Of a DNA stretch of 55,317 nt, positions 4,655 to 55,317 are shown in pieces. Position 1 is the stretch's first letter; every line of letters starts with the position of its first letter. The stretch is taken from positions 1-55,317 of the forward strand of contig JAUXAL010000018.1 of assembly GCA_030619925.1 (NCBI GenBank), in the 5' to 3' direction. This stretch comes from Phycisphaerae bacterium (lineage in GTDB: Bacteria > Planctomycetota > Phycisphaerae > Sedimentisphaerales > Anaerobacaceae). The notes beneath the pieces were generated by a model that was not told where the DNA came from, searched no databases, and was given only the letters and a program-made list of their open reading frames with translations. Both the position numbers and the translations under genes were made by a program.

Positions 4655-4749
4655 AACTCACAAACTATTAAACAGTTAAGGGTTCTGAGCAAAAATAATC
4701 TGTTGTAAGGGGTTGACTGTCAAGAAATTTTGGGTAAATTTATACGAAC

Positions 4750-4764
4750 CCGCCGGCAGGCGGG
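4750..4764. repeat. Short palindrome CCGCC-N4-GGCGGG
   Basis: CCGCC GGCA GGCGGG lies in the leader region upstream of the 7-bp array. It resembles the CCGCC-N8-GGCGGG palindromes found inside genes elsewhere in this window but has a 4-nt loop. Confidence 0.5.
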
Positions 4765-4804
4765 CCACTATAAAGGGCAAAATTGGTACGTGTTTTGTGG
4801 AGAT

Positions 4805-5042
4805 GAAGACAGAAGACAGAAGACAGAAGACAGAGGACAGAGGACAGAGGACAGAAGACAGAAGACAGAGGACAGAGGACAGAGGACAGAGGACAGAGGA
4901 CAGAGGACAGAAGACAGAGGACAGAGGACAGAGGACAGAAGACAGAAGACAGAGGACAGAGGACAGAAGACAGAAGACAGAGGACAGAGGACAGAGGACA
5001 GAAGACAGAGGACAGAGGACAGAGGACAGAAGACAGAGGACA
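4805..5042. repeat. 34-unit heptanucleotide array (GARGACA)
   Basis: Exactly 34 contiguous 7-bp units of GAAGACA or GAGGACA (the last is GAGGAAC), 238 bp, with no indel. The units differ essentially only at the third base. Because 7 is not a multiple of 3, each of the three frames reads the same 7-residue peptide cycle. No stop codon occurs in any frame of either strand, which creates artificial long ORFs that run into the ABC ATPase gene downstream. The array ends 41 bp before the ATPase start codon. Confidence 0.95.
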
Positions 5043-5083
5043 GAGGAACGGTATTTCAAAATGGTATTTCTAACGGGGTAGAT

Positions 5084-5800
5084 ATGATAGAGGTCAAAGA
5101 ACTTCGGCGTAGTTTCGGGCTGGTCATTGCTGTTGATGGTATATCGTTCGAGGTGGAAAAGGGCCAGGTTCTGGGCCTTCTCGGGCCCAATGGGGCGGGC
5201 AAAACCACCGCGATGAGAATGTTAGCGTGTTTTCTGCGGCCCGACAGCGGGACAGCTTCGGTTGGTGGGTATGATATTTTGCAAAACCCGGTCGAGGTCA
5301 GGCGGTCAATCGGGTACTTGGCAGAGAATTCGCCGGCATACAACGAGATGACGGTCGGGGGGTTTTTGAACTTTGTTTGCGATGCCAGAGAGATTAAGGG
5401 CAAAGAACGTAAGCGGGCGCTGGACCGGATTGTCCCGATGTGTTCGATTGAGTCTGTATACCATCAGACGATTGAAACGTTGTCAAAGGGATATAAACGG
5501 CGCGTGGGGCTGGCTCAAGCGCTAATTCACGACCCGGACGTGCTTATTCTTGATGAACCTACCGATGGGCTGGATCCCAATCAGAAACATGAAGTCAGAC
5601 GGCTTATAAATAAAATGTCGAAGGACAAGTGTATTATTATCTCGACCCACATTCTCGAAGAAGTGGAGGCTGTTTGCTCGAGGACGATAATCATTTCCAG
5701 AGGCCGAATATTGGTAGATTCAACGCCCGGTGAGTTGAAGGAGAAGTACCAGTGCGGTCTCGATGCGGTTTTTCGTAAGATTACCAAGAGTGGTAATTAG
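5084..5800 (+). CDS. ABC transporter ATP-binding protein (Gld/Nat type)
   Basis: 238 residues from the ATG at 5084. An upstream in-frame ATG at 4730 is rejected because it would translate the 7-bp array. Walker A GPNGAGKT is near residues 38-45, Q-loop region GYLAEN, signature LSKGYKRR, Walker B DVLILDEPTDGLDPN and H-loop STH follow in normal order and spacing. It energises the membrane protein encoded next. The order ATPase, ABC-2 permease, GldG-like protein, DUF4340 protein is a known conserved arrangement outside gliding bacteria. Substrate unknown. Spacing to the permease is about 70 bp and holds a TTAATTGG triplet repeat. Confidence 0.92.
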   Translation: MIEVKELRRSFGLVIAVDGISFEVEKGQVLGLLGPNGAGKTTAMRMLACFLRPDSGTASVGGYDILQNPVEVRRSIGYLAENSPAYNEMTVGGFLNFVCDAREIKGKERKRALDRIVPMCSIESVYHQTIETLSKGYKRRVGLAQALIHDPDVLILDEPTDGLDPNQKHEVRRLINKMSKDKCIIISTHILEEVEAVCSRTIIISRGRILVDSTPGELKEKYQCGLDAVFRKITKSGN

Positions 5801-5824
5801 TTAATTGGTTAATTGGTTAATTGG
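5801..5824. repeat. TTAATTGG x3 tandem repeat
   Basis: Three perfect 8-bp units directly after the ATPase stop codon, followed by a partial fourth. The 8-bp period differs from the 7-bp arrays elsewhere in the window. Confidence 0.8.
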
Positions 5825-5870
5825 TTAAATAGTTGCCGGTTACGAATTAACCAGATGAGGAGTGCAAAAA

Positions 5871-24498: not shown

Positions 24499-24957
24499 CA
24501 ACGGTGTACTTAACCGTTATAATCCTTGGATTATCACTTAATTTTGGGCAATTGGACAAACCAGTTGCATATAGGTTGCGTTCTCTGGCCGGAGCATGAA
24601 AAAGCTCGTAGTCATTTGACTATCCGCCTGGCACTTTGTCGCTGCTTAATATCTGTCGGTTTAAGCTGTCGGGTTAAGAAGAGGTTTCTGTAGATCAAAA
24701 CACCCAAATGCCCGTAGTCATTTGACTATGGGTCATTTTCCAATCTGTCGTCGGACAGAGCATAAAAAAGCTCGTAGTCATTTGACTATGGTTCGTTTCA
24801 CAACCTGTACCTGGCCGGAGCATGAAAAAGCTCGTAGTCATTTGACTATGGTTTATTTCACGACCTTTCGCTGGACGGAGCATGAAAAAGCTCGTAGTCA
24901 TTTGACTATGGATCGTTTCGCAACGGTGTACTCAACCGCTACAATCCTTGCATTATC
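24499..24957. repeat. 60-bp tandem repeat locus flanked by direct repeats
   Basis: Direct repeats of 37 bp (24499-24535 and 24921-24957, beginning CAACGGTGTACT, 4 mismatches) enclose five copies of a 21-bp core CTCGTAGTCATTTGACTATG(G) at 24605, 24711, 24771, 24831 and 24891. The last four are spaced exactly 60 bp. Each unit carries two inverted repeats: GAGC-N8-GCTC and TAGTCA-TT-TGACTA. The segments between cores are similar to each other, unlike CRISPR spacers. Since 60 is divisible by 3, a 20-residue periodic ORF appears on both strands; residue changes between units look unconstrained, so it is probably not coding. Confidence 0.85.
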
Positions 24958-25603: not shown

Positions 25604-25671
25604 TGGCACAAGTACCGCTCTTGTGAAAGGTAAGCCAAATGATTACTACACAATTGCCAGATTTTCAAGCT

Positions 25672-25727
25672 CGATAATCCAACATCCGGCATCGAGCATC
25701 GAGAATCCAACATCAAGCATCCAGTAT
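25672..25727. repeat. Heptanucleotide array (CCAACAT/CGAGCAT words)
   Basis: Eight 7-bp units in strict register: CGATAAT, CCAACAT, CCGGCAT, CGAGCAT, CGAGAAT, CCAACAT, CAAGCAT, CCAGTAT. Confidence 0.85.
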
Positions 25728-25774: not shown

Positions 25775-25816
25775 CGAGAATCCAGCATCAGGAATCCAGC
25801 ATCCAGCATCCAGTGG
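25775..25816. repeat. Heptanucleotide array (CCAGCAT words)
   Basis: Six 7-bp units: CGAGAAT, CCAGCAT, CAGGAAT, CCAGCAT, CCAGCAT, CCAGTGG. The words overlap those of the array at 25672. Between them, 25728-25774 holds irregular CACTTTAG repeats. Confidence 0.85.
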
Positions 25817-25883
25817 GGAGTCTCGGAGATTTTTCAGGATTTCACTCGAAATCTAATCTGTTTTATGGTATAATGTATCTAAA

Positions 25884-25967
25884 TACTCGATACTCGATAC
25901 TCGATACTCGATACTCGATACTCGATACTGGATACTGGATAGCAAATCGTCAATCGTCAATCAGAAA
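25884..25967. repeat. Heptanucleotide array with word switching
   Basis: Twelve units in one register: TACTCGA six times, TACTGGA twice, TAGCAAA, TCGTCAA twice, TCAGAAA. The word changes while the 7-bp phase is kept. Confidence 0.9.
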
Positions 25968-26079
25968 GGGGGGTTCCCAATGGCCATCGTTTTACAAAAC
26001 GCCGGAAAACAGGGGTTTTTTGTCATATCAGTCCGAAATAGCAGAGAAATCGACGAAAAGTTTGACTATTTTATGCAAA

Positions 26080-26350
26080 ACAAAGCCAATTTCCGAAAAG
26101 CCCAAATGAATGTAAACTCATTTATAACAAAGGATTACAGAAAAAATGACGCTTTCGCAGTCCAAAAAAACAAACCCAATTCAAACCCAAACAAAGCCAA
26201 TTTAAAAAGAGCCAAAATGAACCTAAACATCTATTACACAGAGGTATATGAAAATATATTGTGCATTCGGAGTCAATGAAAGCAAACCCAAACAAAGCCA
26301 ATTTCAAACGCGACGACGGTTTTTCTGCTTATTACACAAGAGATTGCCAC
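26080..26350. repeat. Degenerate ~100-110 bp repeats with pseudo-coding look
   Basis: CAAAGCCAATTT recurs at 26081, 26192 and 26293 (offsets 111 and 101). Each copy is followed by partly conserved text with AAATGAA, TATTACACA and TATATGAAAA-like blocks. Open frames across it (for example 25980-26279 and 26261-26443) read as low-complexity KANF/KNKPNSNP peptides and no single frame spans the repeats, so I do not call a gene. Confidence 0.6.
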
Positions 26351-36548: not shown

Positions 36549-36751
36549 TATGCACCTCCTTCCGCCGCTGCCGGCGGCGTAAAGACACGCTGTCCCATTT
36601 CCCTATCCATCATCCCACGAGGCACGAGGGACGTCCATCTTGCATCGTCCATCGTCCATCGGTCAACGGCCATTGAAAGATATAAATAAGCCGAATACAA
36701 CTCGGCGTTCAACTGCCCGTTCAGAGCCTTTTCCATCTTTTTAGAAATCAT
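36548..36751 (-). pseudogene. Truncated ferritin gene interrupted by a 7-bp repeat array
   Basis: The first 28 codons ([20 protein letters not shown], then AYLYLSMA) are a perfect bacterial ferritin N-terminus. After them the frame passes into a heptanucleotide array (36593-36662) read as [17 protein letters not shown], then a GC palindrome, and stops. The remaining ~130 residues of ferritin, with most iron ligands, are absent. AGGA precedes the ATG, so a short peptide may still be made. It lies 3 bp after the desulfoferrodoxin stop, where ferritin would fit the operon. Confidence 0.8.
36593..36662. repeat. Heptanucleotide array (CCATCGT words) inside the ferritin remnant
   Basis: Ten 7-bp units in register: TCCCATT, TCCCTAT, CCATCAT, CCCACGA, GGCACGA, GGGACGT, CCATCTT, GCATCGT, CCATCGT, CCATCGG. 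Confidence 0.85.
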
Positions 36752-39489: not shown

Positions 39490-40062
39490 TTAGTAGTTAG
39501 CCGCTTCCAGCTCATAGTGAGCCTGTGGATGTGCGCAGGCAGGGCATATTTCGGGAGCTTCGGCACTTTCGTGCACATAGCCGCAGTTTCTGCAGACCCA
39601 TCTTACCGATTGAGCGCGTTTGAATACAAGGCCTTCGGTTATATTCTTTGCCAGAGCGAGGTATCGCTGTTCATGACGTTTTTCAGCAATGGCAATACTT
39701 CTGAAAACTGTAGCAATTTCAGCGAAGCCTTCTTTATCCGCAGTCTCGGCGAAGCCTGGATACATTTCGGTGTGCTCGTAATGTTCACCTCCCGCTGCTG
39801 CTCTTAAGTTCTCAAGCGTGCTGCCAATGACGCCGGCCGGAAATGCTGCGGCAATTTCCACCTCACCGCCTTGGAGAAATTTAAATTCGCGCTTAGCGTG
39901 CTCTTTTTCCTGATTCGCGGTTTCTTCGAAGATTGCAGCTATTTGTTCGTAGCCTTCTTTTCGGGCCTGGCTGGCAAAATACGTGTAACGGTTTCTCGCC
40001 TGCGATTCGCCTGCGAACGCTGTCAATAGGTTCTTTTCAGTCTGACTTGCCTTTAATTCCAT
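39490..40062 (-). CDS. rbr: Rubrerythrin
   Basis: 190 residues. Diiron four-helix domain ([48 protein letters not shown]) plus a C-terminal rubredoxin-like iron site ([20 protein letters not shown]). Reduces H2O2 with rubredoxin or NADH-linked electrons. GGAG precedes the ATG. It is the first complete gene of the oxygen-defence cluster; a heptanucleotide array lies just upstream. Confidence 0.93.
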
Positions 40063-40081
40063 AATTAACGCTCCTTTCCCA

Positions 40082-40172
40082 GAGATTAGAAGTCAGAAGT
40101 CAGAAATCTGTCCTCTGTCCTCTGTTCTCTGTCCTCTGTTCTCTGTCTTCTGTTTTCTGGTTTCTGCTCAGT
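40082..40172. repeat. Heptanucleotide array upstream of rbr
   Basis: Thirteen units in register: GAGATTA, GAAGTCA twice, GAAATCT, GTCCTCT twice, GTTCTCT, GTCCTCT, GTTCTCT, GTCTTCT, GTTTTCT, GGTTTCT, GCTCAGT. The two halves of the array use complementary words, allowing a hairpin. Confidence 0.88.
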
Positions 40173-40301: not shown

Positions 40302-40391
40302 ACAAAAAAATCAGGCGTGCAGGCGGCGGAGGCATAGCTTAAAAGGGCAGCCAAACTACTTGTGTTTTGGGCTTTGGAATGTAAGATATGA

Positions 40392-40468
40392 GAGTTCATA
40401 GTTCGTAGTTCATTGTTCGTTGTTTGTAGTCTATGAACTACGAACTCATAACTATGAACAAAGAAAGG
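40392..40468. repeat. Heptanucleotide hairpin array before the second sulfatase
   Basis: Eleven 7-bp units, GAGTTCA, TAGTTCG, TAGTTCA, TTGTTCG, TTGTTTG, TAGTCTA, TGAACTA, CGAACTC, ATAACTA, TGAACAA, AGAAAGG. The first half (TAGTTC words) is complementary to the second (GAACTA words), so a long hairpin forms 7 bp before the start codon of the sulfatase. Confidence 0.88.
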
Positions 40469-40474
40469 TCTTTT

Positions 40475-41941
40475 ATGAAATCCGAAATCAACCGAAGGAA
40501 ATTTATCAAAGCTATGGGTATGGGAGCAGCCCCGCTGGTCATTTCGGGATGCACGGGTACTGGAGAGCTGTTTGCGAAGAAAACGCCGCCGAATAAGCCC
40601 AACATTGTCTTTATCCTCGCAGATGACCTGGGCTGGAAAGATGTCGGCTATCATGGTGGTGATATCAAGACGCCCAACATAGACAAGCTGGCTTCTGAAG
40701 GAACAAGACTTGATCAATTCTATGTCCAACCGGTGTGCTCGCCGACGCGTTCGAGCTTGATGACAGGGCGATACCCTATGCGCTATGGACTGCAGGTAGG
40801 GGTAGTCCGGCCGTGGGCGAAACATGGGTTACCTCTTGAGGAGCGGACTTTGGCCCAGGCACTTAAGGAAGCCGGCTACACCACAGCTATTTGTGGCAAG
40901 TGGCACCTGGGCCACCTAAGCTCGCAATACCTGCCTACCTCTCGCGGTTTTGACCATCAGTACGGTCACTACAACGGTGCACTCGATTACTTTACTCATA
41001 TTCGTGATGGTGGGCTGGACTGGCACCGTGATGATCAGCCTCTGCGCGAACAAGGCTACACAACCAACCTGATTGCTGATGAATCGGTGCGTCTTGTAGA
41101 GCAGCACGATGTTTCTCGTCCTCTGTTTCTTTATGTGGCTTTTAATGCGCCGCACTCGCCGTTTCAGGCCCCGCAATCTTACATCGATATGTACAAGCAT
41201 ATAAAGGCCAAAAACCGGCGCATATATGCTGCTATGGTTACGTGCATGGACGATGCGATTGGACGGGTGGTCTCAGCACTGGATAAACGTGGGTTGAAGC
41301 ATAACACCTTGCTCATCTTCTGTTCAGACAATGGTGGGACAGGTGTTGTGGGCAGTAATGTTCCTCTGCGTGGACAGAAAGCGCAGCTCTACGAGGGCGG
41401 AGTCCGAGTGCCGGCGATCGCAGTCTGGCCAGAGGTGCTCAAGGCCGGGGCTGTCGTAAAAGAGCCGCTTCATATAGTTGATATGTATCCCACACTGCTT
41501 AAGCTTGCCGGAGCCAGGCTCGAACAGGCTCTGCCGATCGACGGCAAAGATGCCTGGCCGACCATTGCCCAGGGCAGGCCCTCGCCTCACGAGGAAATCC
41601 TTCTCAATAGCACGCCCGCCAACGGGGCGATTCGGCGAGGTGACTGGAAGCTGGTCTACAATGGCAGTATCAGCGCCAATAATGCCGGCCGCCAAGTCAA
41701 TGAAAACCGCTTTGAGCTTTTCAATCTTTTGGATGATCCCTATGAGAGAGACGACCTGATAGATAAATATCCACGGAAATTTCAAGAACTAAAGCAACGG
41801 TTGGAGTTGTATGCCAGACAGGCAGCTGTGCCAAATATCCCGCCGAACAAAATGCCCAAGGATTTTAAGGTGCCAAAGGTCTGGGGTCAAAGAACAGAGG
41901 ACAGAGAACAGAGGACAGAGAACAGAAAATCTGATTTCTGA
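40475..41941 (+). CDS. Tat-exported sulfatase with repeat-derived tail
   Basis: 488 residues from ATG 40475 (GAAAGG upstream). Twin-arginine signal INRRKFIKAMGMGAAPLVIS followed by GC (lipobox-like). Metal site FILADDLGWKDVG, formylglycine motif CSPTRSSLMTGRYP, LLIFCSDNGGTG and GKWHLG are all intact, so an active type I sulfatase is expected. The last 18 residues (GQRTEDREQRTENRKSDF) are encoded by a heptanucleotide array, and the stop codon lies inside it. Substrate is probably a sulfated polysaccharide. Confidence 0.92.
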   Translation: MKSEINRRKFIKAMGMGAAPLVISGCTGTGELFAKKTPPNKPNIVFILADDLGWKDVGYHGGDIKTPNIDKLASEGTRLDQFYVQPVCSPTRSSLMTGRYPMRYGLQVGVVRPWAKHGLPLEERTLAQALKEAGYTTAICGKWHLGHLSSQYLPTSRGFDHQYGHYNGALDYFTHIRDGGLDWHRDDQPLREQGYTTNLIADESVRLVEQHDVSRPLFLYVAFNAPHSPFQAPQSYIDMYKHIKAKNRRIYAAMVTCMDDAIGRVVSALDKRGLKHNTLLIFCSDNGGTGVVGSNVPLRGQKAQLYEGGVRVPAIAVWPEVLKAGAVVKEPLHIVDMYPTLLKLAGARLEQALPIDGKDAWPTIAQGRPSPHEEILLNSTPANGAIRRGDWKLVYNGSISANNAGRQVNENRFELFNLLDDPYERDDLIDKYPRKFQELKQRLELYARQAAVPNIPPNKMPKDFKVPKVWGQRTEDREQRTENRKSDF

Positions 41942-41963
41942 CTTCTGATTTCTGGCTACAGAT
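41894..41963. repeat. Heptanucleotide array spanning the sulfatase 3' end
   Basis: Ten units: ACAGAGG, ACAGAGA, ACAGAGG, ACAGAGA, ACAGAAA, ATCTGAT, TTCTGAC, TTCTGAT, TTCTGGC, TACAGAT. The sulfatase stop codon is in the seventh unit. The halves are complementary. Confidence 0.88.
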
Positions 41964-41979
41964 TTTAGGGAGATATTGA

Positions 41980-42198: not shown

Positions 42199-42223
42199 GT
42201 GGCCAGGCTGTGTTGATAATCTC

Positions 42224-42251
42224 AAATTTGAAATTTCAAATCTAAAATTTG
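42224..42251. repeat. Short heptanucleotide array (AAATTTG words)
   Basis: Four units AAATTTG, AAATTTC, AAATCTA, AAATTTG in register. Confidence 0.7.
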
Positions 42252-42287
42252 GCAATAGAGCGGTTCTGAGCAGAGATTTTGATGATG

Positions 42288-50394: not shown

Positions 50395-50505
50395 TCTTGC
50401 AATCCTGCAGTAACCCAGGTGAGTGCAAAGGTCCCTAAAAGGTCAAGAATCATCATAACGTACACAACGTGACAGCGTACGTCAACGGCCAAGACCAGGA
50501 AAACC

Positions 50506-50568
50506 CAGACTCCAGACTCCAGACTTTGAGTCTTTGGTCTTGAGTCGTTGGTCTTGGGTCTTGGAGAA
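50506..50568. repeat. Heptanucleotide array (CAGACTC / TTGGTCT words)
   Basis: Nine units: CAGACTC, CAGACTC, CAGACTT, TGAGTCT, TTGGTCT, TGAGTCG, TTGGTCT, TGGGTCT, TGGAGAA. The two halves are complementary. Confidence 0.88.
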
Positions 50569-50776: not shown

Positions 50777-50850
50777 GGTATCCATGCGTCCTCCACGGGA
50801 TGCCCCACCACGGCATTACGGCGTGGAATTGGGACAAGGAACTGTGCATT

Positions 50851-50913
50851 TCTCGATACTCGATTCTCGATGCTCGTCCCTCGTCTCTCGTCACTCGTCT
50901 CTCGTAGTTCATG
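50851..50913. repeat. Heptanucleotide array (TCTCGAT / TCTCGTC words)
   Basis: Nine units: TCTCGAT, ACTCGAT, TCTCGAT, GCTCGTC, CCTCGTC, TCTCGTC, ACTCGTC, TCTCGTA, GTTCATG. Confidence 0.88.
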
Positions 50914-50934
50914 CAAAGAGATTGTCCAACAGAC

Positions 50935-50986: not shown

Positions 50987-51001
50987 GTTGTCTTATCATA
51001 C

Positions 51002-51078
51002 ATTGTTCGTAGTTCATTGTTCATGGTTGTTGGTTGAGCATCTATGAACTACGAACTCATAACTATGAACTAAACTTG
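51002..51078. repeat. Heptanucleotide hairpin array in the pectate lyase leader
   Basis: Eleven units: ATTGTTC, GTAGTTC, ATTGTTC, ATGGTTG, TTGGTTG, AGCATCT, ATGAACT, ACGAACT, CATAACT, ATGAACT, AAACTTG. It uses the same words as 40392-40468 and also folds back on itself. It lies between the promoter and the start codon. Confidence 0.88.
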
Positions 51079-51090
51079 GTGACGAAAAAA

Positions 51091-55174: not shown

Positions 55175-55192
55175 GCAGCACCAAAAAAGAAT

Positions 55193-55317
55193 AAATCCTA
55201 AATTCTAATCTCTAAACTCTAAACAATCTCAAATCTCAAAATCCTAATGTTCAAAACGCCGTTGTTTGGGATTTGGAATATTGGGTCATTAGAATTTGTT
55301 TAGGATTTAGTATTTAG
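55193..55317. repeat. Heptanucleotide array at the window end
   Basis: About 18 units in continuous register, from AAATCCT, AAATTCT, AATCTCT, AAACTCT through TGTTTGG, GATTTGG to GTTTAGG, ATTTAGT. Early and late words are complementary, giving a long hairpin. The array runs to the window edge. Confidence 0.85.

Follow-up and report, generated by a model that had tools for sequence, protein, structure and literature searches.

Heterocystous cyanobacteria carry STRR, degenerate heptanucleotide tandem repeats that fall into several word classes and lie in intergenic DNA. The planctomycete genome studied here, a 4.02-Mb draft in 141 contigs with 92.8% completeness, likewise contains degenerate heptads of several word classes, and we know of no description of STRR that includes hairpin arms, mixed-word leaders or in-place inversion. 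Within one 55,317-nt stretch of this genome, analysed at full length and called the window below, an earlier note had listed period-7 arrays at 13 places, and all of them were found by Tandem Repeats Finder and a lag scan, with two of the starts shifted. The commonest unit of long simple repeats is 7 nt, for which the length of the polymerase contact or footprint has been given as the reason; two later papers (PMC4679880, PMC4692102) attribute both points to Mrazek et al. 2007, and the heptamer excess and the polymerase-footprint explanation are already published and not new. Like the heptanucleotide LSSR treated in those papers (PMC4679880, PMC4692102), for which whole-unit changes of copy number have been proposed, the repeats described here have 7 as the commonest unit length and, by crude ORF calling, are mainly intergenic. 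Unlike those LSSR as described there, they comprise many words per genome, belong to dispersed families that carry promoter-like sites or the arms of hairpins, and have one 7-bp register that spans different words.

The GGGNATC-type repeats of Xanthomonas and Nostoc are described (Rehm et al. 2015, PMC4692102) as degenerate intergenic tracts of 2–26 units, sometimes arranged as inverted pairs, whose length and sequence vary between related species, as here; they have one G-rich word type with quadruplex potential, whereas the present elements are composite and use many words that are not G-rich. The TAACTGA repeats of Beggiatoaceae, Cyanobacteria and Bacteroidetes lie just upstream of start codons, like one of the leaders described below, but they are described with one favoured word, with single-base variants that are rarely direct repeats (MacGregor 2015, PMC4679880). 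Here the words vary freely, and no single favoured heptamer such as TAACTGA was present in the corresponding leaders, in which 61 distinct units were found among 171. Among the multicopy elements of Geobacter metallireducens, short dispersed heptad families also occur, one class being drawn as a strand-switching loop; they are described with four or five units and one consensus word per family, unlike the families here (PMC2700814). REP/REPIN sequences with RAYT, as described in two papers (PMC3733652, PMC3116915), resemble our elements in being dispersed intergenic palindromes in a genome with Y1 transposase genes, and differ from our hairpin family A, in which no GTAG/CGTC tag was seen and whose stems are made of variable numbers of 7-bp units. 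No description of planctomycete heptad elements of such kind was found in searches of open-licence papers. To the extent of these searches, heptad elements of mixed words that form a population common to several genera, with promoter-leader and hairpin forms, are new.

The lag scan called an array on a match at ≥20 of 28 positions and was applied to the window and to sampled stretches. The window contained 13 arrays at lag 7, compared to a mean of 0.00 over 50 block-wise Markov shuffles. Lags 8, 12 and 16 gave a single array each, and every remaining non-harmonic lag between 2 and 20 gave nothing. The sole lag-8 array lies at 5794-5834 (TAATTGGT). An unselected sample of the genome, consisting of 19 stretches (325,329 bp) picked by contig number alone, gave 57 arrays at lag 7 and at most 4 at every other non-harmonic lag from 4 to 15; the counts were 2 at lag 6, 3 at lag 8, 4 at lag 9, 1 at lag 10, 4 at lag 11, 3 at lag 12, 2 at lag 13 and 30 at lag 14, and one shuffled copy of the sample gave 10 arrays summed over lags 4–15. 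A second set of stretches from this genome and several from its family were picked at known hits and are excluded from the rates, and locus L014, which is all N, was dropped. By the lag scan and shuffles, tandem 7-nt units are far above chance and 7 is the dominant unit length in the genome; the excess of lag 7 over lags 6 and 8 (57 vs 2 and 3) and over shuffles, which had been proposed as a check, was thus seen. On crude ORF calling, DNA outside ORFs of ≥120 codons makes up 16% of the DNA but holds 64% of array bases, and 23 of 70 arrays lie mostly within such ORFs. Residual intergenic identity was 0.2664 at lag 7 and 0.2634, 0.2637, 0.2664 and 0.2673 at lags 6, 8, 10 and 21, respectively. 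Decayed heptads throughout intergenic DNA were rejected because there was no clear lag-7 signal beyond the called arrays, and the arrays are thus discrete tracts.

The longest array of the window (4805..5047, + strand), detected by both Tandem Repeats Finder and the lag scan, has about 34 units of GAAGACA/GAGGACA and precedes an ABC-transporter domain within the first part of the called ORF 4730-5800, the true start of which may lie further downstream. Degenerate + strand arrays of ATCCAGC/ATCGAGC-type words and of ATCCAGC words occupy 25671..25727 and 25775..25821, respectively, and a CATCGTC-word array listed at 36593 was called from 36630 (36630..36677, +). One inverted element of family B, with a short TCAGAAR arm and a long TCTGTYY arm, lies at 40079..40169 (+), upstream of a rubrerythrin gene (39490-40062, − strand), and another, in the opposite orientation, lies at 41888..41964 (−) and overlaps the 3′ end of a called sulfatase ORF. 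The rubrerythrin has its best protein matches in MAGs labelled uncultured bacterium, Planctomycetota and Sedimentisphaerales, and the host is accordingly a probable planctomycete of that order. Hairpin elements of family A were found at the start of a sulfatase gene (40385..40460, +) and at 51001..51070 (+), the second being 86% identical to the first and having a fold z of −4.94 for the surrounding 50990-51080. Strand is undefined for the remaining arrays, which consist of self-complementary AAATTTG words (42216..42252); an inverted array (50505..50565) whose three CCAGACT units (50505-50525) were seen by Tandem Repeats Finder and whose following GTCTTGG/GTCTTGA words were seen by the lag scan; a switching-word array of CTCGATA, CTCGTCC and CTCGTCT (50847..50914); and an inverted element of TAAATCC and TTTAGGA words that runs to the window end (55192..55317). 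An Rfam search of the window at gathering scores returned no known RNA family. A 60-bp tandem repeat of 3.7 copies at 24706-24924 is dispersed in other contigs of the genome too, and 24569-24909 gives a match at 93% over 341 bp.

The array on which the earlier note centred (25883..25962, +) consists of six ATACTCG units, two of ATACTGG, one of ATAGCAA, two of ATCGTCA and then ATCAGAA, so that the word changes without loss of phase as described. It is the leader of a dispersed, promoter-bearing family, C. A predicted sigma-70-like promoter (25846..25874, +) with the structure TCGAAA-N17-TATAAT and TG before the −10 had 10 of 12 matches in a promoter scan, which returned 4 sites in the stretch versus 1.7 ± 1.3 in shuffles. 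At the other side lie the leader end, a G-rich stretch resembling a ribosome-binding site and the start codon ATG at 25980 (25963..25982, +), and this end of the leader is also present in C copies with other heptad words. A motif search of the sampled loci, which required TATAAT plus a run of G with a start codon after it, gave 15 C copies, the copies L189, L191 and L192 having failed the motif and therefore standing outside the 15. A T[TC]GANN hexamer lies exactly 17 nt before TATAAT, itself required by the search, in 14 of the 15, and most copies other than that of the window have TTGANN.

The leader slot of these copies holds ATACTCG/ATACTGG words in the window, L002, L187, L188, L190 and L194; ATGGTTC/ATAGTTC words in L193, L196, L199 and L201; ATATCGT words in L203; A-type plus ACAGACA words in L256 and L176; and ATCGTCA with few other units in L195 and L197. 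A common 7-bp frame, counted back from the ribosome-binding site, was kept by 13 of the 15, the exceptions being L199, which is shifted by a non-heptad insertion, and L176, in which the A-type words are one base off. The claim that the period is kept while words change was thus borne out, even at homologous places. The listed leaders have from 6 to 21 units each, and an A-[T/C] dinucleotide opens 77% of the units in register and ≤20% in any other phase. At 47 word switches, selected for differences at ≥3 of 7 bases, lag-7 identity, which this selection itself depresses, was 0.441, compared to 0.182–0.301 at lags 4–6 and 8–10. A 99-codon open frame follows the leader (25980..26279, +); it matched no NCBIfam family above cut-off, and in many of the other copies it is interrupted early. 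That this frame has a coding role in family C was rejected, as 9 of 15 frames, a set not exactly the same as the 15 motif-found copies, reached a stop within 45 codons and 2 further frames end at the locus edge; the C element is thus not simply a repeated gene. The segment 26078-26311 is highly repeated, with a mean depth of about 45–76 hits per base in loci of the same genome, some of which overlap, and its frame, which gives KPN/KAN-rich peptides, lies downstream of several C elements and is often broken.

Regarding the words themselves, the supposition that they differ completely between arrays was wrong. Among the 70 arrays of the unselected sample plus the window, with heptads equated over any rotation or strand, 42 have an exact heptad in common with another array, compared to 7.1 (maximum 17) for letter-shuffled words. 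Recurrence at ≤1 mismatch (65 of 70 vs 56.0 shuffled) was barely above the shuffled level, and only exact sharing was used. Word switching within one array stood at 25883-25962, whereas several other arrays proved to be the two arms of inverted repeats, the word passing into its approximate reverse complement at 40082, 41888, 50505, 51000 and 55193. The sister-genus genomes G004 and G048 had exact words of the source genome in 21 of 61 and 13 of 38 arrays, respectively, against 4.0 and 2.0 for shuffled words. Cross-phylum word sharing was rejected; outside the family, exact matches to words of the source genome were at chance level (class 0/10, order 0/2, FCPU426 0/8, Desulfobacterota-type 0/11 and others 1/9).

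BLAST against the source genome showed that the heptad pieces of the window are parts of dispersed families. The left arm of the A element consists of GTTCRT heptads in varying number and its right arm reads TATGAAC-TACGAAC-TCATAAC-TATGAAC; 17 copies covering ≥53 of 76 bases were found in the source genome. The four heptads of the right arm, including the divergent third word, which the search pattern required, were present in 16 of these 17 copies. Among the matches listed from 61 genomes of the family, the A region occurred in at least 10 further genera and the B region in at least 12. Against 294 genomes of the phylum, the source genome included, the A element matched at E ≤ 1e-5 only the source genome and one genome of the same order.

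Orthologous blocks of the sister species G004 and G048 were aligned wherever the stretches overlapped (13 block rows plus one added) and were 92.6% identical over 70,139 aligned columns, "in array" being defined by lag-7 detection in either of the two sequences. Unit gain or loss in multiples of 7, which the earlier note had predicted, was seen in 10 of 15 clean one-sided in-array indels of 4–60 bp, counted from the listed events. Of all in-array events of 4–60 bp, 11 of 27 were multiples of 7, compared to 4 of 53 outside arrays (Fisher p = 6e-4). One A element differed by 14-bp and 7-bp changes inside a 97.5% identical stretch, and another differed by a 14-bp change. An A element beside a tRNA-Ala gene (L141 10637-10702) points one way in G004 and the other way in G048, although its flanks are nearly identical; the two copies score 21.5 when aligned directly and 67.5, with 51 of 67 columns identical, when one is inverted. 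Furthermore, some sites are occupied in just one of the two species: one contains 56 bp (8 × 7), mainly heptads, and another about 218 bp in which nested inverted arms enclose an A element. No target-site duplication could be established there. A 333-bp stretch without counterpart in the sister species (L140 11516-11848) has two near-identical palindrome-like sequences (TGTCATTGCGAGC...) that flank a CAGAATA heptad array. The G004 contig L364 and L334 of G048 are 99.6% identical over 1,973 bp, although the aligned genomes are otherwise about 7% apart, which may reflect recent transfer or contamination; another contig of G004, L358, aligns with that region of G048 at 84–91%.

Considering the period, the common vocabulary, the dispersed copies, the word differences in homologous slots, the 7n changes and the one in-place inversion, all of which were observed directly, we regard it as fairly probable that the arrays are the heptad parts of an inherited, dispersed element population in which unit turnover and point mutation keep the register. 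The elements would be multi-copy and mostly intergenic, comprising the hairpin families A, B and others and the promoter-leader family C. Within a tract, whole 7-nt units may be duplicated or deleted via slipped-strand replication or unequal exchange, point mutations would alter single units, and drifted words may be re-amplified; since length changes are mostly of whole units, period and register would be inherited automatically while words drift. Element segments that spread or recombine may pass words between sites, and one leader slot would thereby come to hold words of different families. Slippage is the presumed cause of the unit changes, recombination may occur between arrays, and the first heptads may have been seeded through a 7-nt slippage preference.

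In a simulation of solely whole-unit duplication or deletion and point mutation at five mutation rates, the three lowest rates gave a lag-7 identity at switches of 0.43–0.54, compared to 0.23–0.28 at other lags, with words differing from the founder at 1.6–4.6 positions on average, and at the two highest rates lag-7 identity fell to 0.37 and 0.33. The earlier note had argued that slippage alone should keep one word and that the kept register implies a mechanism measuring 7 bp. Neither argument survived the simulation, in which unit turnover plus mutation also changed the words with the register kept; unit-wise turnover suffices, and no 7-bp-measuring device is thus required. The runs of B-type words in C leaders such as those of L256 and L176 are explained poorly by stepwise mutation alone and suggest that exchange between arrays may occur as well.

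Ectopic gene conversion or template switching that copies heptad runs between arrays, in register, is worth tentative consideration, though we doubt it as the main explanation. The C leaders hold A, B or ATATCGT words, of which the A and B words form separate families elsewhere, and the A element inverted in place between nearly identical flanks (67.5 inverted, 21.5 direct) is consistent with such copying. However, no donor–recipient pair was traced, many of the steps between words in the leaders come down to one or two base changes, an outcome that mutation with amplification yields too, and the A-type words of L176 are displaced by one base relative to the frame seen elsewhere in the family. 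We think it quite unlikely that such copying extends to a genome-wide in-register exchange pool, in which replication- or repair-linked copying of 7-nt runs also flips hairpins and tunes expression; if this were true, words would be traded among homologous leader slots with no change of phase, promoter or ribosome-binding site, and this bacterial family would possess a system that adjusts expression through 5′ leaders which change fast and can replace one another. It is improbable that the period is selected by a factor that binds DNA or RNA with a footprint of 7 nt, the heptads being multi-site operators or leader sites whose words drift since few positions per unit are read. Same-slot words differ at many positions, leader length varies from 6 to 21 units, many arrays lie outside such leaders, and the excess is weak in order-level stretches and several genomes of the same family, even though the position of the array between a promoter-like site and a stretch like a ribosome-binding site in 15 copies, the in-register A-[T/C] opening (77% vs ≤20%) and the preference of arrays for DNA not covered by long ORFs (16% of the DNA but 64% of array bases) all agree with such a factor.

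Mobile REP/REPIN- or MITE-like palindromes moved by a tyrosine (Y1) transposase, in which the heptads are stem architecture only, are also unlikely to account for the arrays. The A and B copies are dispersed on both strands, the A copies fold well (mean z −2.84, 16 copies), some sites are occupied in G004 or G048 but not in both, an inverted partner lies within 80 bp of 14 of 127 arrays compared to 1.6% in the control, and the genome contains four Y1_Tnp (IS200-like) transposase genes (L215-L218) with scores just over the family cut-off. However, an array lies within about 500 bp of 2 of these 4 genes, which by a rough hand estimate is not beyond chance; linkage to the Y1 transposases was not shown, and no element-specific transposase was tied to the heptad elements. 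Inspected by eye, the A-family copies displayed no GTAG/CGTC tag at the base of the stem, the array at 25883-25962 is not a hairpin (z −0.20), and arrays overall fold like other intergenic DNA, with z ≤ −2 in 6 of 70 array windows and 13 of 150 control intergenic windows (Mann–Whitney p = 0.45). The generic hairpin hypothesis was set aside for arrays overall and retained only for particular families. That the arrays are assembly artefacts is scarcely credible. The source genome is a 141-contig draft, and five single-contig genomes of the family gave 1 lag-7 array in nine stretches (148 kb), but two separately deposited drafts have the same arrays with matching flanks and whole-unit differences, and lag-7 arrays are also present in a stretch of a 512-kb contig (L145) and in a stretch of a 5.3-Mb Desulfobacterales chromosome record (L112).

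The inherited element population with unit turnover, the reading we prefer, also has evidence against it. Whole-unit turnover does not cover 5 of the 15 clean in-array indels, which are not multiples of 7, and the lack of a target-site duplication and of an element-tied transposase, together with the unequal density among genera, speaks against the reading as a whole. The conservation of the A right arm in 16 of 17 copies further indicates that not every tract turns over freely. As for density, lag-7 arrays numbered 23 in the 120 kb taken from G004 and 57 in the 325 kb from the source genome, whereas the excess was weak at order level and in several genomes of the family; in class-level stretches, lag-9 arrays outnumbered lag-7 arrays (19 and 10). 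Universality of 7 was rejected, as Desulfobacterota-type loci had about as many arrays at lag 7 as at lag 8 (11 and 10), and Bacillota loci had no lag-7 array. The unevenness speaks against a universal polymerase preference as the whole cause, and inheritance of a heptad element population whose phase is kept by unit turnover fits better. For the question of why seven is favoured in the long simple repeats of many bacteria, this lineage is a natural test bed, offering hundreds of heptad tracts per genome, as extrapolated from the unselected sample, sister-species pairs whose arrays are unlike by whole units, genera that have the excess and others that lack it, and paralogous leaders distinguished chiefly by their heptad words. 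Should translation depend on the leaders, they would also provide a novel way of changing expression quickly and by degrees. In an FCPU426 bacterium, a member of an unrelated phylum whose exact words are not common to the source genome, an 18-kb locus (L134) has eight lag-7 arrays between 8819 and 16308, with none at lags 5, 6 and 8–12.
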